Source of the DNA: Fodinisporobacter ferrooxydans
Lineage (GTDB): Bacteria > Bacillota > Bacilli > Tumebacillales > MYW30-H2
Assembly (NCBI RefSeq): GCF_022818495.1
Contig: NZ_CP089291.1
Span: 1,971,001 to 2,035,000 of the forward strand
Reading direction: 5' to 3'
Length of the DNA: 64,000 nucleotides
Made by a program: the position numbers and the translations under genes. Numbering within the stretch: the stretch's first letter is position 1; every line of letters starts with the position of its first letter. This document shows positions 2,858 through 47,656 of the stretch, one piece after another. The notes beneath the pieces were generated by a model. The model had not been told where the DNA came from. It was given only the letters and a program-made list of their open reading frames with translations, and did no database searches.

Positions 2858-4222
2858 GTGAAGTATGATCTTATTATTAAAAATGGGCAGGTCGTGTTCC
2901 GTGATGAAGTAAGAAAAGCAGATGTTGCCATTCGTAACGGAAAAATCTCTGCCATTGGGGAAAACTTAAATATTGATGCCGATCAAGTCGTTGATGCTAC
3001 AGGCCAATATGTGATGCCAGGGATGATTGATACGCATGTTCATATTTGCGAGCCAGGACGAACGGAATGGGAAGGATTTATAACGGGTACGAAAGCACTG
3101 GCAGCGGGTGGGACAACCACGTATGTAGACATGCCTTTAAATGCCCTGCCTGCGACTACGACCAGGGAAGCATTGGAGTTAAAAATCAATGCGGCAGAAG
3201 GAAAAAATTATGTTGATTATGCCCTGTATGGTGGGGTAGTTCCCGGAAACCTGGAAAATCTGCAAGAACTTTCAAAAGGTGGAGTAGTAGCCTATAAATG
3301 CTTCATGTCCTCTTGTGGAAGCGATATACCCGGTGACTTTAAAAATGTGGACGACTATACGCTTTATGCAGGAATGAAAAAATTAGCCGAGCTAGGCCAT
3401 CTGTTATGTATTCATGCAGAGAATGCGGAGATTACAGACCGTTTGGCTGAAGAGAAGATCAAGCAGGGGAAGCTGACTGCAACGGATTATGTGGAATCCC
3501 GTCCGATCCTTGCAGAAGTAGAAGCCGTTAAGCGCGCTCTATTCCTGGCAAAAGAGACGGGATGCAAATTGCATTTCGTCCATATCAGCAGCGCGGCAGC
3601 CGTAGAAGAAATTATCAAAGCACGGAACGATGGACAAGATGTCACCCTCGAGTCATGTCCACACTATTTTACACTGACAGTAAATCAATTCGAAGAAATC
3701 GGTCCAACCGCCAAATGCGCTCCTCCTTTACGGGATGAAATGGAACAGGAGAAGCTTTGGGAAGCATTAAAGCAAGGGAAGATTGACATGTTAACATCCG
3801 ACCATTCCCCTTGTCCTCCTGAAATGAAGTATAGTGAGACAAATAACATGTTTGAAGTTTGGGGAGGAATTACCGGTTGCCAAAACAATGTCGATTTAAT
3901 GTTTGATGAGGCTGTAAAAAAGCGCGATGTCCCGGTAACCGAATTTGTTCGCATGATCGCAACGAAGCCCGCAGACAGATTTAACCTAAATACAAAGGGA
4001 GAAATCGCTGTATCCAAAGATGCCGATATCATCCTTGTCGATCCGAATCAGTCTTATGAATTATCCGCTGACCATTTATACTATCGACATAAACATAGCC
4101 CGTACATTGACCGTAGAATCAATTGCAGAGTCACGAAAACATTTGTACGTGGACATTTGGTGTTCGATCTTCGCGAAGGTATTTTGGGAGGGCCAATAGG
4201 ACAGTTACTGCCAAATAAATAA
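2858..4222 (+). CDS. allB: allantoinase (copy 1)
   Basis: A 454-residue cyclic amidohydrolase that hydrolyses (S)-allantoin to allantoate. The binuclear metal site is complete: HxH at 60/62 (DTHVHICEPGRTEWEG), the lysine to be carboxylated at 147 (VAYKCFMSS), H186, H242 and D315 (TSDHSPCPP). These positions nearly coincide with those known for E. coli AllB. GTG start at 2858 follows an AGAGGGGG ribosome binding site. The EPGRTEWEG motif favours allantoinase over dihydroorotase or hydantoinase. It lies 33 bases after the permease and 107 before a paralogue of the same length. Confidence 0.92.
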   Translation: MKYDLIIKNGQVVFRDEVRKADVAIRNGKISAIGENLNIDADQVVDATGQYVMPGMIDTHVHICEPGRTEWEGFITGTKALAAGGTTTYVDMPLNALPATTTREALELKINAAEGKNYVDYALYGGVVPGNLENLQELSKGGVVAYKCFMSSCGSDIPGDFKNVDDYTLYAGMKKLAELGHLLCIHAENAEITDRLAEEKIKQGKLTATDYVESRPILAEVEAVKRALFLAKETGCKLHFVHISSAAAVEEIIKARNDGQDVTLESCPHYFTLTVNQFEEIGPTAKCAPPLRDEMEQEKLWEALKQGKIDMLTSDHSPCPPEMKYSETNNMFEVWGGITGCQNNVDLMFDEAVKKRDVPVTEFVRMIATKPADRFNLNTKGEIAVSKDADIILVDPNQSYELSADHLYYRHKHSPYIDRRINCRVTKTFVRGHLVFDLREGILGGPIGQLLPNK

Positions 4223-4329: not shown

Positions 4330-5694
4330 GTGAAAGAAGATTGTTATGATCTGATCATACGCAACGGTCAGATTGTCACCGAAGAAGGAATATTTCAAGG
4401 AGACATCGCCGTACACGAGCAAAGAATCGTTAAAATTGGATTTATTTCGACGGAGAAAAAAGCCAAGAAAGAAATCGATGCTGTCGGTCTGCACGTTTTT
4501 CCGGGTTTGATCGATACTCATGTGCATTTCAATGAACCCGGCCGGACTGAATGGGAAGGGTTGGCCACAGGCAGCCAAAGTTTGGCGGCAGGTGGAGTGA
4601 CAACTTTCTTTGATATGCCCCTTAACAGCAGTCCTCCAACTACAACAGCACAAGGTTTTGAACGAAAAAAACAAGCAGCAGAGCAAAGTTCCATTCTTGA
4701 TTATGGCCTTTGGGGAGGGCTGGTTCCGGGAAATCTGGACTCCCTGGAACATCTCAAGAAACTGGGAGTCATCGGATTCAAAGGTTTTATGTCCAATAGC
4801 GGCATCGATGAGTTCCTTCATGTAGACGACTCTACATTATTTAAAGGGATGCAAAAAATTGCCGGGCTTGGTTCCATCCTGGCTCTCCATGCCGAAAGCG
4901 ATGTCATTACAAATCAACTCGCGGATTGGTATAAAGCACAAGGGCGCCGGACTGCACGGGATTATGCGGCTTCGCGTCCTGTTTTATCGGAAATCGAAGC
5001 TGTCGGCAGGGCAGCGTCCTATGCGGAAATTACAGGATGTAAATTGCATATCGTACATGCAAGCAGTGGCGAGGTCGTGAAACGGATCAGCGAAGCAAAA
5101 CAAAGAGGGGTCGATATAACTGTGGAAACTTGCCCCCATTACCTGGCTTTCACCACCCCGGATCTGGAACGGCTGGGAGGGGTGGCAAAATGCGCACCGC
5201 CTCTGCGGGAACAGGAGCATGTGGAATCGCTTTGGGAAGCTTTGAAATCCGGTGAAATCGATAGTATCGGTTCGGATCATTCCCCCTCTCCTCCTGCTAT
5301 GAAAGTGGCTTCAGATAATGATGATTTTTTCAGTTTGTGGGGCGGTATCTCGGGAGCGCAGACGACATTGAACGTGATGCTTGAGGAAGGGTATTGGCGG
5401 CGCAACCTTCCTTTGGAAGTCATTGCACGAGTAACTGCGGCCAATCCGGCCAAACGGTTTGGTCTGTATCCGCGGAAAGGTACGATTGCCGTTGGAAGTG
5501 ATGCTGATCTGGCGTTGGTCGATTTGCAATCTTCCTTTGTCCTGAAGGAAACGGATCTTTTCTATCGGCATCGACAGAGTCCGTATATAGGGAAGACGTT
5601 CCGGGGGATGGTTATGTTTACAATTCTTCACGGAAGAGTTGTTTTTCAAAAGGGAGAAGGGATCGACAACAACTTTTTTGGCCAGATGGTATAG
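4330..5694 (+). CDS. allB: allantoinase (copy 2, paralogue)
   Basis: A second 454-residue cyclic amidohydrolase, clearly related to the preceding gene but diverged through most of its length. All metal ligands are kept: H64, H66 (DTHVHFNEPGRTEWEG), K151 (GFKGFMSNSG), H187, H243 and D316 (GSDHSPSPP). GTG start at 4330 follows GGGGGGATTGAC. Duplicate allantoinases could differ in stereochemistry ((R) versus (S) allantoin), substrate range or expression; the sequence alone cannot tell. It is followed by a bidirectional terminator facing the convergent pucG gene. Confidence 0.9.
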   Translation: MKEDCYDLIIRNGQIVTEEGIFQGDIAVHEQRIVKIGFISTEKKAKKEIDAVGLHVFPGLIDTHVHFNEPGRTEWEGLATGSQSLAAGGVTTFFDMPLNSSPPTTTAQGFERKKQAAEQSSILDYGLWGGLVPGNLDSLEHLKKLGVIGFKGFMSNSGIDEFLHVDDSTLFKGMQKIAGLGSILALHAESDVITNQLADWYKAQGRRTARDYAASRPVLSEIEAVGRAASYAEITGCKLHIVHASSGEVVKRISEAKQRGVDITVETCPHYLAFTTPDLERLGGVAKCAPPLREQEHVESLWEALKSGEIDSIGSDHSPSPPAMKVASDNDDFFSLWGGISGAQTTLNVMLEEGYWRRNLPLEVIARVTAANPAKRFGLYPRKGTIAVGSDADLALVDLQSSFVLKETDLFYRHRQSPYIGKTFRGMVMFTILHGRVVFQKGEGIDNNFFGQMV

Positions 5695-5734
5695 GTGTTA
5701 TGCTACATGTCTTCTTTCACTAAACACCCTTAGC

Positions 5735-5776
5735 TAAATCAGCCCTTACCAAACACTCTTGGTAAGGGCTGATTTA
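5735..5776. terminator. bidirectional terminator between allantoinase 2 and pucG
   Basis: A perfect 17-bp inverted repeat (arms 5735-5751 and 5760-5776, loop AACACTCT) fills the gap between two convergent genes and abuts the pucG stop codon. The arms start and end with A/T runs, so it can act on both strands. Confidence 0.85.
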
Positions 5777-7009
5777 TTACTCATGTTCTTCGTTATGATA
5801 CACATCAAGTGCGGCTTGAACCGCTTGACCGGCGTTTATTTTTGCGCCGTGCCTGATGAGGGCAGCCTCGAGTGCGCCCAATACGTGAAGGATGTTTTTC
5901 TTTCGGCAGCTATAGCCCATTGTCCCTATCCTCCAGATTTTCCCTTTTAGCGGTCCGAAGGAGCTTGCAATTTCAATGTGAAAATCATTCAGCAACATAG
6001 AACGGACAGATTCTCCATCAATGCCATCCGGTATGGAAACGCAGGTGACTACCGGCAGTTTGCAGCTTGGATCCCCATACAGATCCAGGCCCATAGCTCG
6101 GATACCCTGGACGAGAGCTTGTTCATGCAGTTGATGCCGGGCAATTCTGGCCTCCAGCCCTTCTTCCAGAACAATTCGTAATCCCTCGCGCAGAGCGTAC
6201 AGCATGGAGGTAGCTTCAGTGTGGTGATTCAAGCGGGCCGGGCTCCAATAGTCCATTAACTGGCTGAGGTCAAAATAATTGCTGCGAATCGTCCGGTTTT
6301 GTGTTTGCTGTTGCGTATTCGGATCCGTTAATCCTCTTTCGATTTTCTTTCTTTGCAGCAGGACCGCTTCCACTCTGGAGTTGAAAGTAATCGGCGCCAT
6401 ACCGGAAGGGACGGATAAACATTTTTGTGTTCCGCCGATGGCAGCATCAATTTTCCATTCATCCACCTTCACTTCAGTTCCGCCGATGGATGCAACCGCA
6501 TCGACAACAAACAGAACGTCCATTTCCCGACAAGCTTCCCCGATTTCCTGTAAAGGCTGCATACATCCGGTGGAAGTTTCCCCATGTACCATAGCCACAA
6601 TCTTCGGTTTTACTTTTTTTATTTCCAGAATCACTTCAGCGGGATCAAACACCTGTCCCCAAGTGGTCTCGATGTTGACAACATCCGCTCCGTAACGTTC
6701 AGCTATTTCCGTAAGAAGATGCCCGAAACGTCCGTAGATCGGGATCAGAACCCGGTCCCCAGGTTCGATGATGCTGCAAAGAACAGCTTCAATACCTGCC
6801 CGTGAGGTGCCGTCAACCGGGAATGCCCAGTGATTCTCCGTCTGGAAGAGCTTCCGGAGCATCTCCATGGTTTCATTCATGATGTTCGTGAACTCCGGGT
6901 CAAATTGTCCCAGGATGGGAGTGCTCAAGGCGCGCAACACCCGCGGTTCGGCTTCGACAGGACCTGGTGTCATAATGGTTCGCAGCGAAGTATTGAGATC
7001 CTTGTACAT
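5777..7009 (-). CDS. pucG: (S)-ureidoglycine-glyoxylate aminotransferase
   Basis: A 410-residue fold-type I PLP enzyme of the alanine-glyoxylate aminotransferase family. The PLP lysine is K196 in GGTQKCLSVPSG, and D170 in FVVDAVASIGG would contact the cofactor nitrogen; the N-terminal MTPGPVEAEPRVL is the family signature. PucG moves the amino group of ureidoglycine to glyoxylate, giving oxalurate and glycine. Oxalurate is the substrate of the AllFGH complex hinted at by the first gene in this window. It starts 5 bases after the allC stop, so the two form one operon. A serine-glyoxylate or alanine-glyoxylate aminotransferase is the alternative; context favours PucG. Confidence 0.85.
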   Translation of the reverse strand: MYKDLNTSLRTIMTPGPVEAEPRVLRALSTPILGQFDPEFTNIMNETMEMLRKLFQTENHWAFPVDGTSRAGIEAVLCSIIEPGDRVLIPIYGRFGHLLTEIAERYGADVVNIETTWGQVFDPAEVILEIKKVKPKIVAMVHGETSTGCMQPLQEIGEACREMDVLFVVDAVASIGGTEVKVDEWKIDAAIGGTQKCLSVPSGMAPITFNSRVEAVLLQRKKIERGLTDPNTQQQTQNRTIRSNYFDLSQLMDYWSPARLNHHTEATSMLYALREGLRIVLEEGLEARIARHQLHEQALVQGIRAMGLDLYGDPSCKLPVVTCVSIPDGIDGESVRSMLLNDFHIEIASSFGPLKGKIWRIGTMGYSCRKKNILHVLGALEAALIRHGAKINAGQAVQAALDVYHNEEHE

Positions 7010-37478: not shown

Positions 37479-38186
37479 CTAACTAAATTCCATTTTATCA
37501 GGTTTCCCCAATAAAAATCCTTGCGCAATCGGAACACCTAATGATTTGGCAGCAGCTAAATCTTCCGGCTTTTCGATTCCTTCCAAAATGACTTTTCCAT
37601 GGTCTTTACAAACATCGACCAAAAATCGAATAAATTTTTGTTTTTTATCCGAAAAAGACAAATCATTCGAGAAATATTTATCGATTTTTATAAAATCCGG
37701 TTTCAGTTCAAATAGTTTCTGTATTGATGTTTCTCCTTTTCCCACATCATCCATCGCCAATAAGAATCCATAATTTTTCAATCGAAGCATAGCCTCAAGA
37801 AAAAGCTGGGTATTCTCAATTTTTTCGCTCTCATTAATTTCAAAAACAATATGCTGACAGGATATTGTTGTTTGATGAATGAGTTGTTCTATAAAAGAAA
37901 AAAATTCAGGATTCAGCATCGTAGAAGGAAAAATATTCAAAAACAACATGGTTTTATTCGTTTCATAAACACGATGAAAGGTAGAGGCTGCTTTGATTAT
38001 CGATTTCGTATCAAGTTCGTAAATATGATTGGTTTTCATTGCCGATTGAAAGACTTCTTCCGGGTTTGAATTCCAATCGGATCGAAAAAATGATTCATAA
38101 CCCATTACATCCCAACTTGAAATATCCCAAATTGGTTGATACACATGAAAAAAATTATCATTTCGCAATAAAGTATCGAGTGACAA
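37479..38186 (-). CDS. EAL-domain c-di-GMP phosphodiesterase-like protein
   Basis: A 235-residue stand-alone EAL domain with no sensory or membrane part. The EAL motif is changed to ESF (GYESFFR), but metal- and substrate-binding positions are kept: N in LFLNIFPST, E in VFEINES, DD in AMDDVGKG (loop 6, usually DDFGTG), K in DFIKIDKYF, E in LEGIEKP and Q in IAQGFLLGKP. It may hydrolyse c-di-GMP or only bind it. TTG start at 38186 has a weak ribosome binding site, and a stop lies 6 bases upstream, so no longer start is possible. A 30-bp palindrome is 22 bases upstream of the start. Confidence 0.82.
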   Translation of the reverse strand: MSLDTLLRNDNFFHVYQPIWDISSWDVMGYESFFRSDWNSNPEEVFQSAMKTNHIYELDTKSIIKAASTFHRVYETNKTMLFLNIFPSTMLNPEFFSFIEQLIHQTTISCQHIVFEINESEKIENTQLFLEAMLRLKNYGFLLAMDDVGKGETSIQKLFELKPDFIKIDKYFSNDLSFSDKKQKFIRFLVDVCKDHGKVILEGIEKPEDLAAAKSLGVPIAQGFLLGKPDKMEFS

Positions 38187-38208
38187 AATCTATCATTCCA
38201 ATCGTCAT

Positions 38209-38238
38209 AATCTAACAAAATGCCCATTTTGTTAGATT
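38209..38238. repeat. 30-bp palindrome, left copy
   Basis: Perfect 14-bp arms (AATCTAACAAAATG and complement) flank a CC centre. It lies 22 bases ahead of the EAL gene. Its complement occurs at 39035-39064 with 28 of 30 matching positions, so the two copies are in opposite orientation around the recombinase gene. It may be a recombination site, an operator or an mRNA hairpin. Confidence 0.8.
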
Positions 38239-38348
38239 GTTATAAAATGTAAAATAGCTTTAAATACCTTGGTATTCAAGGGATTTTTAAGTTGATCTAG
38301 AATTATATCAAAAATATCATTTAACATATTGAATTTTTTTGTTTGTAA

Positions 38349-38365
38349 AATCTAACATTTTGATT
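38349..38365. repeat. shortened copy of the palindrome before the recombinase gene
   Basis: AATCTAACATTTTGATT keeps both ends of the 30-bp palindrome but lacks its middle. It ends 12 bases before the chosen start of the recombinase, just upstream of or touching the ribosome binding site. All three genes here thus carry the motif in the leader. Confidence 0.5.
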
Positions 38366-38377
38366 GAGGTGGGGCCT

Positions 38378-38941
38378 TTGAGCAGCAAGCGGGGAGCAAA
38401 CGCCGTTGAACCAATTCGGGATATAGATAAAATCCAGGAAATAAAAGATTATTTACTACGTAAATCGTATCGAGATTATTTTTTGTTTGTCTTTGGAATC
38501 AATTCTGGGCTTCGAATCAGTGATGTGCTGCCTTTACGTGTCATGGATGTCAAGTACACGAAACATTTTAAAATTAAAGAGAAAAAGACAAAAAATATAA
38601 GAAAAACCATCATAACGCCGATTTTAAAAAGTGAAATTGAAAAATATACCTTTCGAATGGCTGATTCTGATTATTTATTTCTTTCACAAAAAGGTGAAAA
38701 ACCAATAACCAGGATACAAGCATGGCAAATCATCCATAATGCAGCAAAAGCTTGTGGAGTTGAAGGAGCAATTGGTACACATACCTTGCGAAAAACGTTT
38801 GGCTATCATTTTTACCAACAATATAAAGATGTGGCTATGCTACAGTATATTTTCGGACATTCCAGTCCCTCTATTACATTACGATATATTGGTATTAATG
38901 ATGACATGGTTGATGAAGCTTTAGAACGATTTTCATTGTAA
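38378..38941 (+). CDS. short tyrosine recombinase (FimB/FimE-sized)
   Basis: A 187-residue catalytic-domain-only tyrosine recombinase. All active residues are present: R46 (SGLRISDVL), a lysine in KIKEKKTKN (about 70), H135 and R138 (HTLRKTFGYH), H161 (FGHSSPS) and Y170 (TLRYIGI). It lacks the N-terminal core-binding domain of phage integrases and equals FimB/FimE invertases in size. TTG 38378 follows GAGGTGGGG; an open frame extends to 38339 through the leader. The palindromes on both sides in inverted orientation are possible substrate sites. Family assignment is secure, the target is not. Confidence 0.85.
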   Translation: MSSKRGANAVEPIRDIDKIQEIKDYLLRKSYRDYFLFVFGINSGLRISDVLPLRVMDVKYTKHFKIKEKKTKNIRKTIITPILKSEIEKYTFRMADSDYLFLSQKGEKPITRIQAWQIIHNAAKACGVEGAIGTHTLRKTFGYHFYQQYKDVAMLQYIFGHSSPSITLRYIGINDDMVDEALERFSL

Positions 38942-39034
38942 TATCTTGAATTCTAAAAACTTTTCAAATAGGTCGCTTTTTTCGACAAAAAACTTTATAA
39001 TTTTCAGTGTAGCTTATAGATAATTTTGTAAATA

Positions 39035-39064
39035 TATATAACAAAATGGGCATTTTGTTAGATT
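39035..39064. repeat. 30-bp palindrome, right copy
   Basis: TATATAACAAAATG, GG and CATTTTGTTAGATT. The right arm equals that of the left copy; the left arm has two changes. It lies 34 bases before the histidine kinase start. The GG centre on this strand opposite CC in the left copy shows inverted orientation. Confidence 0.8.
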
Positions 39065-39098
39065 AAAAGAATATTGCCTCATTTGAAGGTGCATAAAG

Positions 39099-40415
39099 GT
39101 GATTAAAAACCTTGTATTACAAATGATAATCATTTTATTTCCAATTTTTATTTATCAACTTATTATTGAAAATAGATTGTTTAAAAATTTTTCAAGAAGA
39201 AATTTTTTATTTATCGGAGTTTTGTCTGGAGTTTCCAGTATTTTCTGTATGACATTTCCCATAGTATTGAGTGACGGCTTTCTTTTAGATTTGCGTTGGA
39301 TTCCTTACGCAATTGCCATTTTATATGGTGGATTCTACTCATGGATTCCCGCTTTTGTTATGATATTAGGATATCGTTTGTACATAGGCGGATCTGCTGT
39401 GTACACGTCATTTCCCATTGCGATTGTATTTGCTTTGGCGGTATTTTTGATTCGCAAACAATTTCATGTATTGAATCGAAACAAAAAGATGATGTATGGT
39501 GGAGTGATTGGCGGGGTATCCTTTTTGCTTGTGATCGTAACATTTTATATTTTTCTTGAAATGAACGACGATGTAACAAACGTAGATTCATATGAGGTTG
39601 TATTTTATTTAAAGGCTTATTTTTTATCCGTCATCGCAATGGCTATATCGATATTTTTAATTGAAAATATGATCGAGAATAAAAAAATGCATGCAGAGAT
39701 CCAACGATCCGAGAAATTAACCGTTATCAGCGAGTTGGCAGCATCCATTGCACATGAGGTGCGCAACCCTTTAACGGTTGTCCGTGGATTCATACAATTG
39801 TTAAGCAAATCAGTTGACGAAAAAAATCAACAGTATATAAAAATGGTGATAAACGAGCTTGATCGGGCAGAGTCGATTATAAGCGATTATCTGAATCTCG
39901 CCAGGCCTCATAATGATCGAATTGAGCCAATTGAGGTGTGCAATCATTTAAATAGCATTGTAGATATTATGTCTCCATATGCGCTGATGAAAAATATTGA
40001 GCTGCGTTTGGATTGCGAGAAAGGTATTCGAATTCAGGGAGATAAGGATAAATTCAAACAAATCATTATGAATCTGATCAAAAATTCAATTGAAGCGATC
40101 GTATTGAGAGGAAGTATTGCTGTACAGGCATTTCGTTCCGACGATCGGGTTATCATTACGATCACTGATTCTGGTGAGGGCATGACACAAGAGCAATTGC
40201 AACGCGTGGGGAATCCATTTTATTCAACAAAGGAAAATGGAACGGGGCTTGGCTTAATGGTTACATTCCAATTGATCGAATCTATGGGTGGGAAACTCGA
40301 AATTTTCAGTGAATTGGGAAAGGGCACAGAAGCAAGAATCGGACTGCCGGCAGTTAGAGTTGGTTGTGAGACCGAGCAAACCAGCCGATATGAGACGAAT
40401 ATTGGAGGCGTTTGA
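39099..40415 (+). CDS. membrane sensor histidine kinase (LytS/5TMR-LYT type)
   Basis: A 438-residue kinase. The first 200 residues form about six membrane segments of the 5TMR-LYT type (FPIVLSDGFLLDLRWIPYAI, ILYGGFYSWIPAFVMILGYR). HisKA follows with the phosphorylated histidine in SIAHEVRNPLTVVRGF (about 222), then the HATPase boxes NLIKNSIEAI, ITDSGEGMT and GTGLGLMVTF. The layout resembles KinB/KinD-like sporulation or lifestyle kinases of Bacilli. GTG 39099 follows GAAGGTG. There is no response regulator next to it, so it probably feeds a phosphorelay elsewhere. The upstream palindrome is shared with the EAL gene. Confidence 0.85.
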   Translation: MIKNLVLQMIIILFPIFIYQLIIENRLFKNFSRRNFLFIGVLSGVSSIFCMTFPIVLSDGFLLDLRWIPYAIAILYGGFYSWIPAFVMILGYRLYIGGSAVYTSFPIAIVFALAVFLIRKQFHVLNRNKKMMYGGVIGGVSFLLVIVTFYIFLEMNDDVTNVDSYEVVFYLKAYFLSVIAMAISIFLIENMIENKKMHAEIQRSEKLTVISELAASIAHEVRNPLTVVRGFIQLLSKSVDEKNQQYIKMVINELDRAESIISDYLNLARPHNDRIEPIEVCNHLNSIVDIMSPYALMKNIELRLDCEKGIRIQGDKDKFKQIIMNLIKNSIEAIVLRGSIAVQAFRSDDRVIITITDSGEGMTQEQLQRVGNPFYSTKENGTGLGLMVTFQLIESMGGKLEIFSELGKGTEARIGLPAVRVGCETEQTSRYETNIGGV

Positions 40416-40651: not shown

Positions 40652-41854
40652 ATGACAGATATGTGGCCAATCGCAGCAAACATGAAGCCATTTTTACAAG
40701 AGATTTGGAAAAAATCCGGGTTTACGCAACCGACGGCGATTCAATCAAAGGCCATTCCACTGATTTTAGACGGAAGAGATGTAGTGGCAGAATCCCCAAC
40801 AGGCACAGGCAAGACGATCGCCTATCTACTGCCTGCACTGCAAAAGATCGACCCCGGCAAGAAAGACGCGCAAACAGTAATTTTAGCGCCTACGCGGGAA
40901 TTGGTCATGCAGATTCAACAGGTGATTCAAAAATGGACGGAAGGCAGCGACATCCATGCAACTGCATTGATCGGCGGAGCAGACTTGAAAAGACAACTGG
41001 AAAAATTGAAACAACATCCGCAAATCGTAGTAGGGACAGCCAATCGAATTCTCGAACTGATCAACATGAAAAAACTAAAAATGCACGAGGTCAAAACGAT
41101 TGTATTCGATGAGGGTGATCAACTGCTCGTACCTGAAGCTATGGATACGATTCAAAACATCATTAAGACGACGCTCCAAGATCGACAGGTGGTTTGCTTT
41201 TCGGCCACCGTATCTGCAAAAACGGAGCAACTCGTAAAAGAAATGATGAAACACCCGGAAATCATCCGAATTAAAGCGGACACGCTGGCTCCTTCCAAGG
41301 CTGAGCATATCTACTTCTTGTGTGAACCGAGAGAAAAAATGGATTTGCTGCGTCGGATCGTGAAAATGGATCAAATCAAAGGTTTGGCTTTTATCAACGA
41401 TATGAATTATTTTCATACAGTTGCTGCAAGATTGCAGGATCGAGGAATTTCCTTCGGAGCCTTGAGCGGTGAGTCGAAAAAGACAGAGCGAGAGTCTGCG
41501 CTGAAAAATTTCCGTGATGGCAAATTCCCATTGCTGCTGGTCACGGATGTTGCTGCAAGAGGACTTGATATCGAAGGATTGACACATGTCATCCATGTAG
41601 ATTTTCCGAAGGACCTGACCCAATACGTGCATCGCTCGGGGCGAACAGGCAGAATGGGAGCGACCGGCACGATCATCTCGATGGTAACGGAAAGGGAAGA
41701 GCGTGTTTTACAGCAGTACAGCCGCAAATTAGGGATTCCTATCCATAAAAAATCTTTGCACATGGGGAAAGTCTTGGATGCAAAGAGAAATCAGTCTGTC
41801 TCAAATCAAACAAAGAAAACAACCCCCCAACCAACGAGCAAACGAAAAGGATAA
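40652..41854 (+). CDS. DEAD-box-family ATP-dependent RNA helicase
   Basis: A 400-residue minimal helicase. The Q motif region is [17 protein letters not shown], motif I SPTGTGKT, Ia PTREL, Ib TANR, motif III SAT, then [13 protein letters not shown] and [10 protein letters not shown]. Motif II reads DEGD instead of DEAD, an uncommon variant that keeps the metal-binding DE pair. The C-terminal tail is short and basic ([13 protein letters not shown]). ATG 40652 follows GAGGAGA. It is probably a cold-shock or ribosome-assembly helicase. A terminator follows immediately. Confidence 0.9.
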
Positions 41855-41857
41855 CCC

Positions 41858-41883
41858 ACCCTTCCACCGCGAAGGGTTTTTTT
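41858..41883 (+). terminator. terminator after the helicase gene
   Basis: ACCCTTC (41858-41864) pairs with GAAGGGT (41871-41877), loop CACCGC; seven T residues run from 41877 to 41883. Confidence 0.9.
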
Positions 41884-42020
41884 GTGTTTTTTATGAAGGT
41901 GTCAATAGCGCAAGTTTGTCAAGGGAAGTTAGTCAGGATGAATCTATTGGATGCTTCAATGGCAGGGTACGATGGAGTTGTTCAAAAAATTCTTTTGCGC
42001 TGATAAGGGAGGTTATCAAG

Positions 42021-42194
42021 ATGTTATCAAATATTGGAGTTCCTGGTCTGATTATAATTTTGGTTTTGGCGTTGTTGATTTTTGGTCCAAGTAAACTGCC
42101 GGAAGTTGGCAAGGCGTTTGGAAAAACGATTCGTGCTTTTAAAGACGGAACAAAAGATTTGCTTGATGATGCGGAGTCTAAATCGTCCAAATAA
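42021..42194 (+). CDS. tatA: TatA/TatE twin-arginine translocase subunit
   Basis: A 57-residue protein with one N-terminal membrane helix ([20 protein letters not shown]), the [14 protein letters not shown] hinge and amphipathic helix, and a charged tail. TatA oligomers form the pore that exports folded Tat substrates. ATG 42021 follows AAGGGAGGT. It lies 40 bases ahead of the Fe-S/Mo enzyme operon, whose large subunit has a Tat signal, so it is probably dedicated to it. No tatC is present in the window. Confidence 0.93.
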
Positions 42195-42234
42195 GCCAAT
42201 TCTCAGTCAGTAATGGAATGTGAGGTGCAAGCAA

Positions 42235-43122
42235 ATGGATATACCAAAGAAAGTATGGGATTCACTCGTTGAACAACAACTGGAGGAAGGGAGAGCGATT
42301 CTGGATCGGGTGGATTACAACACAGAACTGGGGTTGGCAATGGCGAAAGGCGCTCAACAGGTGATGAAAGGTGTCATAACAAGCGATCAGTTCTATGAAA
42401 AATTCAAACAGGCGGTCGAGGAAGAATTCGGAGTCACATTTCAGCCCGTGAAAGAATCGCCAAAAAATCCGAAAAGCCGTGCGTTTGGCGGTAAAAAATG
42501 GGCCATGGTGATCGATTTGGCGAAATGTGTGGGCTGCGATACATGTACCGTATCCTGCAAGGCGGAAAACCGGACACCGCCAGGCGTGACCTATAACGTG
42601 GTCATTGAAGATACGGTGGGAACATTTCCAAACGTGAAAAATATCAATTTGCCGCGTCCCTGTATGCAGTGTGACAAACCCCCATGTGTCCAGGTTTGTC
42701 CGGTGCGGGCATCATATAAATTGGAAAATGGCATTGTCGCCATTGACGCAGACCGATGCATCGGCTGCCGCTATTGTCAGGTTGCTTGTCCGTATGGATC
42801 CCGTTATTTTGACTTTGGATTAAGTTATGAACAAGAAATGACCGGATATGACGCCGTGCAAGCATCGGAATACGGTGTTGCACACGGCAGGCGCACGCCG
42901 ACGAAAGAACCGGTAGGCACGGTTCGCAAATGCACGTTTTGCATGCATCGTCTCGAGCGCGGAGAAGAGCCTGCGTGCGTGGAGACATGTATCGGTGATG
43001 CGAGATATTTTGGGGATTTGAATGATCCGAACAGTATCGTGTCAAAATTGGCAGCCAGCCCAAGGGCATTTCGCCTGCGTGAAGAGTTAGGCACAGAACC
43101 GCGAGTCATCTATTTAAAATAA
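42235..43122 (+). CDS. four-cluster ferredoxin-like electron-transfer subunit (TtrB/PsrB type)
   Basis: A 295-residue iron-sulfur subunit of the DMSO-reductase family. Four cysteine groups are visible: CVGCDTCTVSC, CMQCDKPPCVQVC, CIGCRYCQVAC and CTFCMHRL followed by CVETC, the 16 cysteines for four 4Fe-4S clusters. An N-terminal 85-residue extension without cysteines precedes them. It passes electrons between the NrfD-like membrane subunit and the molybdopterin subunit. ATG 42235 follows GAGGTG. Confidence 0.88.
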   Translation: MDIPKKVWDSLVEQQLEEGRAILDRVDYNTELGLAMAKGAQQVMKGVITSDQFYEKFKQAVEEEFGVTFQPVKESPKNPKSRAFGGKKWAMVIDLAKCVGCDTCTVSCKAENRTPPGVTYNVVIEDTVGTFPNVKNINLPRPCMQCDKPPCVQVCPVRASYKLENGIVAIDADRCIGCRYCQVACPYGSRYFDFGLSYEQEMTGYDAVQASEYGVAHGRRTPTKEPVGTVRKCTFCMHRLERGEEPACVETCIGDARYFGDLNDPNSIVSKLAASPRAFRLREELGTEPRVIYLK

Positions 43123-43227
43123 ATTCTATTTAGAATAAATTGGGCGCAACAAAACAACAAGCAATAACAGTAAATAATCAAAAACAACAAAAAAATGTAT
43201 GAAAGTCCATGAAGGGAAGTGATAAAG

Positions 43228-44532
43228 ATGCATCAAATCCCTGTTTCGTATCAACGGCATTCTTCGCAAAAGCATTCTTCCGCAAGGCAAACAAATCTAA
43301 AAAAGATTGAGAAAATTTGGTGGGCCAGTTTATTGCTTGTTTTTATTCTTGGAATGGTATCACTCGTAAAGGGATATTTGCTTGAGGGAATGACGTCTAC
43401 CAATTTGTCAAATGTTGTTCCTTGGGGAGAATGGGTCGCGTTTTATATTTATTTTATCGGCATGAGTGCAGGTTCATTCCTTTTATCGACACTTGTATAT
43501 GGCTTCGGCATGCACCAATATGAACGGATTGGCCGATCTGCTTTGCTTTCCGCGATTGTTTGCATGATTACTGCGATCACATTCATTTTTTTGGATATTG
43601 GGCGACCGGACCATATCTTTAATTCGATCATCTATTGGAATGTAACAAGCACGATGGCTTGGGAGATTCATTTCTATATTTTGTACATTGCTTTGCTTGT
43701 CGTAGAACTCTATTTTTCCATGCGTGTGGATTTGGTACGGCTGGCAAATTCGCCGACGCGTTTCGCAAAGTTTTATGGATTTCTTACATTCGGATATCGG
43801 AATATTTCTGATGAAGCATTGCAAAGGGATCGAAAACTACTGCAAATCCTGGGAATCATCGGAATACCACTGGCTATTTTTGGAGTTCACGGCGGGACCG
43901 GTTCGATTTTTGCCGTTGCAAAAGCACGTCCTTTTCTAAATACCGGACTTTTTCCCGTCATCTTTATTTTATCGGCGCTTGTGTCGGGCACAGCGTTGTC
44001 GATTGCCATTTATGTGGCGAAAAACAAGGTGTTGAAGCGTCCCAGCGATGTGACCATGGTTCGTTCTCTCGGAAGCTTATTGGTCATGTTTTTATCCATT
44101 GAACTCGCGCTCGAATGGTATGAGTTTTTAATTGGCTGGTATGGCGTAAAACCGGAAGAATTGGCGACAATCTCTACAATGGCGGGAAGTTCTTGGGCGT
44201 GGACGTTCTGGTTGTTCCAAATGGGTTTGGCGATGTTTGTGCCATTGATTTTGCTGTTTCTTCCAAAAACGAGAAAGTCAATCACATGGATTTTTGTTGC
44301 ATCGATTCTCACAATTATCGGAGTTGTGGGAGTGCGTTTCAATATGGTCGTACCCATGCTGATTGTTCCCGTGATGAATGGACTGCCCGGAGGCAATTAT
44401 TATCCGACGGTCTCCGAATGGATCACAAGTTTTGGCTTGATTGCGATGTGTTTTCTTCTCTATACGATCGGCGAGAAGCTGTTGCCGATCGATCAATATG
44501 AAGTGGTAAGGGGAGAAGCGAACGATGACTGA
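43228..44532 (+). CDS. NrfD/PsrC-like membrane quinone-interacting subunit
   Basis: A 434-residue polytopic protein with eight or nine membrane segments, of the NrfD/PsrC/TtrC type. WGEWVAFYIYFIGMSAGSFL (about 73-92) and the HGGTGSIFAVAKARPF block are typical; such subunits exchange electrons with menaquinone. ATG 43228 follows GAAGGGA at about 10 bases, while the in-frame GTG 43219 is too close to it. Its end overlaps the start of the catalytic gene by 8 bases. Confidence 0.87.
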   Translation: MHQIPVSYQRHSSQKHSSARQTNLKKIEKIWWASLLLVFILGMVSLVKGYLLEGMTSTNLSNVVPWGEWVAFYIYFIGMSAGSFLLSTLVYGFGMHQYERIGRSALLSAIVCMITAITFIFLDIGRPDHIFNSIIYWNVTSTMAWEIHFYILYIALLVVELYFSMRVDLVRLANSPTRFAKFYGFLTFGYRNISDEALQRDRKLLQILGIIGIPLAIFGVHGGTGSIFAVAKARPFLNTGLFPVIFILSALVSGTALSIAIYVAKNKVLKRPSDVTMVRSLGSLLVMFLSIELALEWYEFLIGWYGVKPEELATISTMAGSSWAWTFWLFQMGLAMFVPLILLFLPKTRKSITWIFVASILTIIGVVGVRFNMVVPMLIVPVMNGLPGGNYYPTVSEWITSFGLIAMCFLLYTIGEKLLPIDQYEVVRGEANDD

Positions 44533-47500
44533 GAAACATCATGATGAAGAGAATCAAAAACAACTATCGCGCCGCCAATTTTTGAAAGGCGCTTCCGCAT
44601 TGGTTGGAATCGGCCTTGTAGCACCTGCCTTGTTTCACCCATTTGAACAGGCGCTGGGCAACAGTTGGGAGGATACACCTCATGGCATCGGTGGAGATGA
44701 CCAGAATTATGACGCAACAGATATCATCCATACTGTATGTCAACAGTGCAACTCCAGTTGTACGATCCGTGCATTGCTTGTGCCTGGAGATAAAAATGCC
44801 CCATATTCATCCTTGGTGCGGAAGATATCCGGCAATGCGTTCAGCCCTTTAAATACTATTCCATATGGGCAAGTTCCCTATGGCGCTTCGCCCAAAAAGG
44901 TAATAGCAGGACTTACGACCGCAGAAATGGCAGTTGCGGGACGAGGATTTCGGGGTGGCAGAACCTGTCTGAAAGGGCAAGCAGGCATACAAACGGTTTA
45001 TGACGCATATCGCTTGCAAACGCCTTTGCGCCGTGTGGGGCCGCGGGGAAGTGGAAAATGGGAAAGCATCACATGGGAAGAAGCCTTTCATGATATTTTA
45101 GAAGGAAATACCAAGTTGGGAACACCCGGACTGAAAAAACTTTGGGCGTATGTCCCGCAAAAACCAGTTATGGACGATTGGGAAAAAGTAAAAAGCGGCA
45201 CTATGACGTCTCAAGCGTTTGACGCCAAGTACCGGGAAGTTTTGATTGACACCAAACATCCGGATGCAGGTCCAAAAGCCAATCAAATTGTCGGATTCGG
45301 CGGGGATCGCCGGGATTTTGCGACCCGGTTTTTTACCAGCCAATTAGGCTCTGTCAATTTTTATGACCATACATCGATTTGCGGCGCTTCTTCCGGTACA
45401 GGGACGGTGCAATCCTACGATGGCGGCAAACGGATCAAAAAACGCTTGATGGCAGATATTGAGAATACGGAGTTTCTGATTGTCTGGGGAACAGATCCCC
45501 TTGTTGCAAGTAAAGCTCCGACTTACTTGGCGCCGAAAATTACAAATGCAAGGTCGCGCGGCATGAAACTGGCCGTCATTGAACCGCGAATGAGCAAGAC
45601 ATCGGAAAAGGCAGATTGGTGGATTGCAGTCGAGCCTGGCCAAGATACGGCGCTTGCCCTTGGCATGATTCGCTGGATCATCGAAAATCATCGCTACGAT
45701 GAATCCTATTTACGGAATCCCAACCAAACGGCCGCAAAGCAAAATGGTGAACCGACCTGGAGTGACGCCACCTATTTGGTACATGTGGATGCGCCCGGAA
45801 AACCTTTGCTCAAGGCAAAAGATCTGGGACTTGCAGAAGACGAATCTCCCGTTGTGATGGAGCAAGGAGTTTTGAAAACAGCAAAATCGGCACATCGAGG
45901 GGATTTGGAGGTTGATGCGGTGATCCAAGGCCGTCATGTGGTATCTGTATTTTCCTTGCTGAAAAAACGGGTCATGGAGAAAACCATGCAAGAGTATGCA
46001 GCGTTAAGCAAAGTTCCGGTCGAACAGATCCAATTTCTCGCCAAAGAGTATACGTCACATGGGAAAAAGGCAGCGATCATGGCATATCGTGGACCTGCCA
46101 AACATGTGAATGGATTTCATGCCGTACGCGCCATCAATATTCTGAGTCATTTGATCGGCAATGCGGACTGGAAGGGGGGCTCCCTTACAGGTGGGGCGAA
46201 ATTTGCCGACTTTACGGGCCGCTATGATTTAATAAGCGTACCGAATGCCCATCATGCTTGGGGCATTCCGCTCGACAGGCATAAAGTGACGTATGAAACA
46301 ACCACATATTTTAAAAACGACGGATATCCCGCGAAACGTCGCTGGTATCCGGTTGCAGGCGCAGCCAGTTATGATATTTTGCCAAGTTCCGAAAGGGGCT
46401 ATCCCTATTCCATCCAAGCCCTGTTTGTCAGCCGCATGTCTTTGATCCTGTCATTTCCTAACGGACGGCTGCAGGAAAAACTGTTAAAAGATCCAAAAGT
46501 CGTGCCGCTGCTTGTGGTTTCCGACATCGTCATGGGAGAGACAGCTGCGGTGGCGGATTATGTGTTGCCTGATCTCGGTTATTTGGAGCGATTCGGAGCC
46601 GAGTCGGTTTTTGAAAATTTGCCGACAAAAGTCAGTACAGTCATTCAGCCGGTTACAAGAGTGGTCTCAAATGCAAAATCGATTGATGAAGTATATCTGG
46701 AAATTGCCAAACGAATGCAATTGCCTGGAGTGGGGGACCATGCATTTGCAGGCGGCGGGGCTTTGCATTCCGTGGAAGATTTTTATCTGAAACGGGCCGC
46801 CAACATTGCATATGATGGAAAGCCTGTCCCTGATGCCTCAAGCGACGAACTGGATACGTTTGTGAAAGCGAGGAAAAAAGCCCTTGGGCAGTTTTTCAAT
46901 CTGGCAAAATGGCAGGCTGCCGTAAAAAAAGAAGAATGGAAAAAAGTCGTTTACGTTTTAAACCGCGGCGGCCGCTTTGAATCGGCGGATCAAGCCTACA
47001 CGGGAGATCATTTGACACATCAATGGGGTTCCCAAGTGAAGATCTATGCGGATAAAGTCGCACATTTCAAAAATTCGGCGAACGGAGCGTTCTTTGACGG
47101 ATTGCCAGTGCTTGAGCCGCCAAGCGATTACAAGGGTCAAAGCATGCCGGCATTGTATCCATTGAAAATGATCAACTGGAAAGCAAGAAATCTTGGATCG
47201 CATCGGACGATTGCGGATGCCTGGCTGCGTGAAGTTCGCGATGAAAATTATGTGTGGATGAATTCCGTTGATGCGAAAAAACGTGGCTTAAAAACAGGAG
47301 ATCGAATTGCAGTCAAATCGTCAAGCTATCATGCTGAAGGTGAATTGCTCGTTACCGAGATGATCAAACCGGGAATCGTAGGAGCCGCCTATAATTACGG
47401 CCATACGCAATATGGTTCGAAGCCCTACGTGATTGACGGAAAAGTGATCCGTCCACCGCAGTCTTACAATTGGACGCCTTTTGATTTGAATCGGCCGTTG

Positions 47501-47656
47501 CATGAAGAAATGGGATTGGCAAAAGGAAGAGGAGAAGGATTTTCCGTCAACAATCTGCTTGCAATGGATCCCACCATTCCAAATGCCTGCTATGCAGATA
47601 TTATTGGCGGTTCACCTGCACAGTTTGATTTATTCGTAGATATTCAAAAACTTTAG
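44525..47656 (+). CDS. molybdopterin oxidoreductase, tetrathionate-reductase-like catalytic subunit
   Basis: A 1043-residue DMSO-reductase-family enzyme. The Tat signal has SRRQFLKGASALVGIG. The 4Fe-4S site is CQQCNSSC with a distal cysteine in GGRTCLKG; the Mo ligand is probably the cysteine in SICGASSGTG. Length and the HTVCQQCNSSCTIRA motif match tetrathionate reductase TtrA better than the shorter thiosulfate/polysulfide reductases (about 750 residues). It would reduce tetrathionate (or another sulfur compound or arsenate-like oxyanion) outside the membrane. Neighbouring sulfur-relay genes support a sulfur substrate. Confidence 0.83.
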   Translation: MTEKHHDEENQKQLSRRQFLKGASALVGIGLVAPALFHPFEQALGNSWEDTPHGIGGDDQNYDATDIIHTVCQQCNSSCTIRALLVPGDKNAPYSSLVRKISGNAFSPLNTIPYGQVPYGASPKKVIAGLTTAEMAVAGRGFRGGRTCLKGQAGIQTVYDAYRLQTPLRRVGPRGSGKWESITWEEAFHDILEGNTKLGTPGLKKLWAYVPQKPVMDDWEKVKSGTMTSQAFDAKYREVLIDTKHPDAGPKANQIVGFGGDRRDFATRFFTSQLGSVNFYDHTSICGASSGTGTVQSYDGGKRIKKRLMADIENTEFLIVWGTDPLVASKAPTYLAPKITNARSRGMKLAVIEPRMSKTSEKADWWIAVEPGQDTALALGMIRWIIENHRYDESYLRNPNQTAAKQNGEPTWSDATYLVHVDAPGKPLLKAKDLGLAEDESPVVMEQGVLKTAKSAHRGDLEVDAVIQGRHVVSVFSLLKKRVMEKTMQEYAALSKVPVEQIQFLAKEYTSHGKKAAIMAYRGPAKHVNGFHAVRAINILSHLIGNADWKGGSLTGGAKFADFTGRYDLISVPNAHHAWGIPLDRHKVTYETTTYFKNDGYPAKRRWYPVAGAASYDILPSSERGYPYSIQALFVSRMSLILSFPNGRLQEKLLKDPKVVPLLVVSDIVMGETAAVADYVLPDLGYLERFGAESVFENLPTKVSTVIQPVTRVVSNAKSIDEVYLEIAKRMQLPGVGDHAFAGGGALHSVEDFYLKRAANIAYDGKPVPDASSDELDTFVKARKKALGQFFNLAKWQAAVKKEEWKKVVYVLNRGGRFESADQAYTGDHLTHQWGSQVKIYADKVAHFKNSANGAFFDGLPVLEPPSDYKGQSMPALYPLKMINWKARNLGSHRTIADAWLREVRDENYVWMNSVDAKKRGLKTGDRIAVKSSSYHAEGELLVTEMIKPGIVGAAYNYGHTQYGSKPYVIDGKVIRPPQSYNWTPFDLNRPLHEEMGLAKGRGEGFSVNNLLAMDPTIPNACYADIIGGSPAQFDLFVDIQKL

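Follow-up and report, generated by a model that had tools for sequence, protein, structure and literature searches.

The locus described here most probably constitutes a self-contained invertible promoter cassette that would phase-vary c-di-GMP and sensory signalling, a reading to which we assign a probability of about 85%. It lies between an EAL gene and a sensor kinase gene in a 64,000-nucleotide stretch of the Fodinisporobacter ferrooxydans genome, which is called the window in the following (Table 1). In the proposed mechanism a small tyrosine recombinase would bind both inverted core sites, and strand exchange inside their 6-bp spacers would flip a segment of ~830 bp that carries the recombinase gene itself. 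A promoter near the 3' end of this gene would face out through the adjacent site, such that it would drive the sensor kinase in the sequenced orientation and the EAL gene in the inverted orientation. A cell line would thereby alternate between two heritable signalling states. The preliminary description of this DNA had already proposed a switch whose flipping segment carries its own recombinase gene. This proposal is supported by the matching of the spacers, by a conserved outward -10 element and by homologous flanking genes that are found on opposite sides of related cassettes. Judged from these sequence features, inversion is expected to take place in F. ferrooxydans, and the resulting phenotype may be a shift in motility, biofilm or sporulation choice.

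Table 1. Features of the cassette and its neighbours, with positions in the window.
Feature	Position	Strand	Basis or remark
Stand-alone EAL gene (c-di-GMP phosphodiesterase-type)	37479..38186	-	PF00563, E 2e-46
Left recombinase core site AACAAAA-TGCCCA-TTTTGTT	38214..38233	.	within palindrome 38209-38238
Weak rightward terminator-like hairpin	38267..38281	+	left end of segment; not general among relatives
Two half-site-like repeats, TAACATATTGAAT and TAACATTTTGATT	38322..38365	+	upstream of recombinase
Tyrosine recombinase, 187 aa, catalytic domain only	38378..38941	+	Pfam PF00589, E 2e-23; alignment to Xer-type structures
Outward promoter (predicted)	38973..39001	+	-35-like TCGCTT 38973-38978 (weak), -10 TATAAT 38996-39001
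Right recombinase core site AACAAAA-TGGGCA-TTTTGTT	39040..39059	.	inverted relative to left site; within palindrome 39035-39064
Membrane sensor histidine kinase (5TM-5TMR_LYT, HisKA, HATPase_c)	39099..40415	+	Pfam

Core sites, recombinase and predicted promoter

The left palindrome (38209-38238) reads AATCTAACAAAATG-CC-CATTTTGTTAGATT with 14-bp arms, and the right one (39035-39064) is identical to its reverse complement at 28 of 30 positions. Between 38208-38237 and 39036-39065 the complementarity amounts to 97%. Positions and match are the same as in the preliminary description, which had reported palindromes with CC and GG centres enclosing a complete catalytic-domain recombinase; the enclosed protein is in agreement with this by its Pfam match and its length. 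The most plausible reading of each palindrome is one recombinase core site composed of 7-bp inverted arms and a 6-bp spacer. The inversion of the two sites is visible through the spacer, which is TGCCCA on the left and TGGGCA on the right. The 20-bp core AACAAAATGSSCATTTTGTT occurs in 2 exact copies in the 4,856,687-bp genome, both at this locus. When up to 3 mismatches were allowed only one further match was obtained, having 3 mismatches, and a control with the reversed pattern gave 2 weak matches per strand. With only two copies in the genome, a multi-copy repeat or REP-like element is ruled out. Such sites are also not widespread without a recombinase, an observation that had been named beforehand as one that would speak against a switch.

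The recombinase probably starts at TTG 38378, giving 187 aa as in its relatives, and a ribosome-binding site (GAGGTGG, 38366-38372) lies ahead of this codon. Alignment with 4a8e, 5hxy and 5jjv revealed all catalytic residues (R46, K70, H135, R138, H161 and Y170), such that the protein has the PF00589 domain as well as the R-K-H-R-H/W-Y residues of the tyrosine recombinases. PF00589 was its sole family match, which excludes it from the serine invertases of the Hin family. Membership in the FimB/FimE-type enzymes, which the preliminary description had named for comparison, was rejected: the NCBIfam models for tyrosine-type DNA invertases scored weakly (48.7 and 45.0 bits) and stayed below their curated cut-offs (222 and 221). 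Scores were higher with XerA/XerD models than with FimB/FimE-type models. The XerA model gave 90.1 bits, covering model positions 110-260 only, which is below the curated cut-off of 220 that applies to full-length proteins with an N-terminal core-binding domain, and membership in the XerC/XerD/XerA equivalogs was rejected as well. Among the 14 related loci described below, the first of the two half-site-like repeats ahead of the gene (TAACATATTGAAT) is kept in 12 with at most 2 mismatches. It is possible that the repeats at 38322-38365 form an autoregulatory operator of the recombinase.

The predicted promoter reads through the right site toward the kinase, with a spacing of 17 nt between its -35 and -10 elements. 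Its -35 hexamer is weak, and promoter matches provide little evidence when the DNA is AT-rich. An exact outward TATAAT is found 28-38 nt before the right site, between the recombinase stop and the site, in 12 of the 14 loci (3.2 expected from shuffled sequence, 0 on the opposite strand); as the loci are related by descent, these counts are not fully independent and the conservation could partly reflect common descent. We consider TATAAT 38996-39001 the putative -10 element of the outward promoter, which would be active at this position. Upon simulated inversion between the core sites the -10 element faces the EAL gene, ~86 nt upstream of its start codon.

Related cassettes and their neighbouring genes

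The same anatomy was found at 13 further loci (L013, L014, L015, L016, L019, L028, L061-L065, L067 and L069), whose hosts include Aneurinibacillus danicus, A. terranovensis, Paenibacillus oceani, P. naphthalenovorans, P. cisolokensis, Cohnella laeviribosi and Gordonibacillus kamchatkensis. At all 13 the two sites are inverted and separated by 777-839 bp. Tyrosine recombinases can exchange strands only between identical spacers. Between the two inverted sites of a locus the spacer is identical in 14 of 14 loci, with 10 distinct spacers occurring among the loci. Random pairing of the 10 distinct spacers, repeated 200,000 times, never reached the full match and gave no more than 7 matches. Since spacers that match within a locus are needed for strand exchange, they represent the signature of sites that recombine together.

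In recombinases of at most ~60% identity no paired inverted sites were present where examined, including the paralogue L005 of the same genome. The idea that the arrangement is general to all relatives of the recombinase was therefore rejected: distant ones lack the site pair and plasmid-type ones are arranged otherwise. Elsewhere in the F. ferrooxydans genome (G000:C1:274872-278915) four consecutive same-strand integrase-like stretches (L007, L008, L010 and L011), two of them with internal stops, apparently form a decaying integrase array.

No terminator was found between the right site of the window and the kinase. At L014 and L015 strong terminators lie 125-127 nt outside the right site and chemotaxis genes lie on the left, which is the layout that an ON/OFF promoter switch needs. 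L067 and L069 also carry a terminator beyond the right site, and a terminator is often present where no coding target follows this site. A terminator at the left end of the segment is clear only in L064, L065, L015 and L019 and is not claimed as a general feature.

A c-di-GMP or chemotaxis gene (EAL, GGDEF, HD-GYP, PilZ, CheW or MCP) adjoins the cassette in 8 of 8 independent contexts as a raw count. These contexts comprise EAL and kinase in the window, CheW and MCP at L061, PilZ at L062, GGDEF and EAL at L063-L065, EAL and GGDEF at L067, HD-GYP with MCP/CheW at L013, MCP/CheW and in some cases HD-GYP at L014, L015, L016, L019 and L028, and EAL with MCPs at L069. Directly beyond the right site of L061, where other loci have their target gene, a transposase-like ORF is located (5505-6893, recognized from its translation). 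In Aneurinibacillus the cassette, flanked by a diguanylate cyclase on one side and a phosphodiesterase on the other, may possibly act as a genetic toggle of opposing c-di-GMP enzymes.

Related cassettes also allow to compare orientations. At L063 and L064 the gene order is GGDEF(-), recombinase(+), EAL(+), whereas L067 from the same genus has EAL(-), recombinase(+), GGDEF(+). The EALs of the two arrangements are 52% and the GGDEFs 43-48% identical, with the domains confirmed by Pfam, and a flip of the cassette alone converts the first arrangement into the second. This provides strong but not conclusive evidence that the cassettes are found in inverted orientations. The outer flanks of L067 are unlike those of L063/L064, and an independent arrangement of the same three genes is conceivable. 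L067 furthermore has no conserved TATAAT, and a terminator precedes its GGDEF gene. The preliminary description had stated that one fixed orientation in all relatives would contradict a switch; such uniformity is not seen in this comparison between species. The five loci with a common chemotaxis flank (L014, L015, L016, L019 and L028) have a single orientation, such that inversion may be rare or biased. L065, a close relative of L064, is without the GGDEF gene at the left site (3549-3713, recombinase on the + strand) and has kept the EAL side.

For the window itself, Pfam confirmed both flanking genes that had been named previously, i.e. the EAL gene on the minus strand (38186) and the kinase gene on the plus strand (39099). 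Inspection of the alignment revealed that the EAL protein conserves the acidic residues and the lysine of active enzymes and has loop 6 altered to DDVGKG; the protein is likely enzymatically active. Its identity of 46-55% to the EALs of L061, L063-L065 and L067 places it in the same subfamily, compared to 27% for the unrelated EAL of L069, and it occupies the L067-type side of the cassette. The subfamily was found in 44 of 399 sampled genomes, and 25 of 30 examined EAL loci were without sites, which weakens the EAL association as a stand-alone proof; one of these 25 (L074) is in fact the L061 locus, its site being outside the strict match or the examined stretch. A second EAL of the subfamily (48% identical) is encoded at G000:C1:2985362-2986054 of the same genome, where a whole-genome pattern search found no recombination sites nearby.

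No response regulator gene lies beside the window kinase. The KinD model gave 170.6 bits on this protein with a cut-off of 775, i.e. a loose likeness to sporulation kinases, and it is speculation that the kinase might feed the sporulation phosphorelay. Further along the window (41778-47656) a TatA-like ORF is followed by iron-sulphur, NrfD-like and Tat-signal molybdopterin oxidoreductase ORFs, which, from translations read by eye only, resemble a tetrathionate-reductase-type cluster.

Spread and origin of the cassette

One genome (G001) holds two cassettes, L061 and L062, that are 91.7% identical from site to site and have no detectable similarity immediately outside. As the similarity ends at the sites, the cassette appears to have spread as a unit. 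The window cassette can likewise be aligned with the two G001 copies only from site to site, and the flanks differ widely among genera. Such unit-like behaviour would also be found for a small mobile element, for which the palindromes would be the ends of the unit moved by the recombinase and the signalling neighbours would be incidental. We consider this improbable, since tyrosine recombinases invert, and do not excise, a segment between inverted sites, only 1-2 copies are present per genome, every independent context adjoins c-di-GMP or chemotaxis genes and the predicted outward promoter is conserved. Both readings can hold for a switch that also spreads. The two G001 cassettes differ in their spacers (GAGCCA and GGCCCA) and should not cross-react.

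The cassette proteins grouped together in 82% of the bootstrap trees calculated from 38 recombinases. Together with five other proteins, including the one from plasmid pPM8 of Bacillus badius, they formed a joint group with a support of 100/99. On pPM8 a single palindromic site immediately precedes the recombinase gene. The cassette may have arisen from a plasmid-type recombinase by the addition of a second, inverted site and of an outward promoter. L019 (3838-4680) and L028 (3840-4688) carry broken recombinase frames between two intact core sites; provided that the draft assemblies are correct, the switch would be locked at these loci. The sister group with the pPM8 protein, the single site on pPM8 and the two broken genes could also be accounted for by a remnant of a plasmid-type multimer-resolution system, whose dif-like sites would form a pair without present function. 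This explanation appears very improbable, given that 12 of 14 recombinase ORFs are intact and that the chromosomal cassettes retain two inverted sites with matched spacers down to a protein identity of ~73-89%. That the palindromes, being near-perfect and able to form RNA stems, represent RNA hairpins, terminators or regulator-binding sites instead of recombination sites can practically be discarded, since T-tracts are absent after them and hairpins or operators do not need locus-specific spacers that match in inverted orientation within a locus.

Returning to the invertible promoter cassette, it would, if true, represent a compact, self-contained tyrosine-recombinase switch linked to c-di-GMP and sensory signalling that occurs in several genera. 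Heritable switching of motility, biofilm or sporulation in Paenibacillus-like bacteria would thereby obtain a mechanism that can be tested. A broader proposal, for which we see the odds as even, is a portable phase-variation module of ~860 bp that originated from a plasmid-type recombinase, spread as a unit among Bacilli, was repeatedly recruited beside c-di-GMP/chemotaxis genes and formed duplicates that are orthogonal via their own spacers. With spacers that match within a locus and differ between loci, the cassettes may represent a natural set of inversion modules that are orthogonal to one another, which is of interest for genetic memory devices.

Comparison with known inversion systems

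The preliminary description knew of no switch with this layout. The layout in general is not without precedent, considering that Hin lies inside its invertible segment and that C. difficile possesses invertible promoters of c-di-GMP genes. The literature searched, which included few subscription papers, yielded no example from Bacilli of a promoter cassette that is self-contained, uses a tyrosine recombinase and adjoins c-di-GMP genes, nor anything specific on such a cassette in Paenibacillus or Aneurinibacillus. A genome-wide survey rarely detected small DNA inversions in Bacilli (1 of 15 inversion-positive Firmicutes species, PMC5903667).

Among the small plasmid tyrosine recombinases of Bacillaceae, that of pPM8 is ~71% identical to the window protein and has the same arm-6-arm palindromic site, but this site is single, has AACATAA arms and presumably serves multimer resolution, not inversion. 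FimB/FimE and fimS of E. coli combine a catalytic-domain-only tyrosine recombinase of ~200 aa with an invertible promoter, as is predicted for the cassette; these enzymes are, however, encoded outside the fimS segment and have other targets. PsrA of the pneumococcal hsdS (cod) locus is a tyrosine recombinase that is encoded in the locus it inverts, using inverted repeats (PMC7096588). Unlike the window cassette, it reshuffles the coding sequence of methylase specificity genes and does not switch a promoter.

In C. difficile invertible promoters between short inverted repeats precede c-di-GMP phosphodiesterase/signalling genes at pdcB (Cdi2), pdcC (Cdi3) and cmr (PMC9286219, PMC6837544). RecV is the enzyme for flg and cmr, and PMC9286219 does not identify the one for pdcB. 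These switches, from the class Clostridia, consist of small segments (174 bp for pdcB) in which no recombinase is encoded, whereas the window segment holds its recombinase. With the gene inside the segment and only two sites in the genome, the cassette differs from RecV-type systems, in which the recombinase acts in trans on short invertible promoters.

The segment of the Hin/fljBA flagellar phase switch of Salmonella holds an outward promoter. The Hin recombinase gene is located inside its own invertible segment as well (PMC5903667). In having the recombinase and a predicted outward promoter inside the segment the window cassette corresponds to the Hin-type layout. Hin, however, belongs to the serine recombinases and uses a Fis-bound enhancer, whereas the cassette has a tyrosine recombinase, palindromic core sites and other targets and, unlike Hin, lies between two coding targets at some loci.
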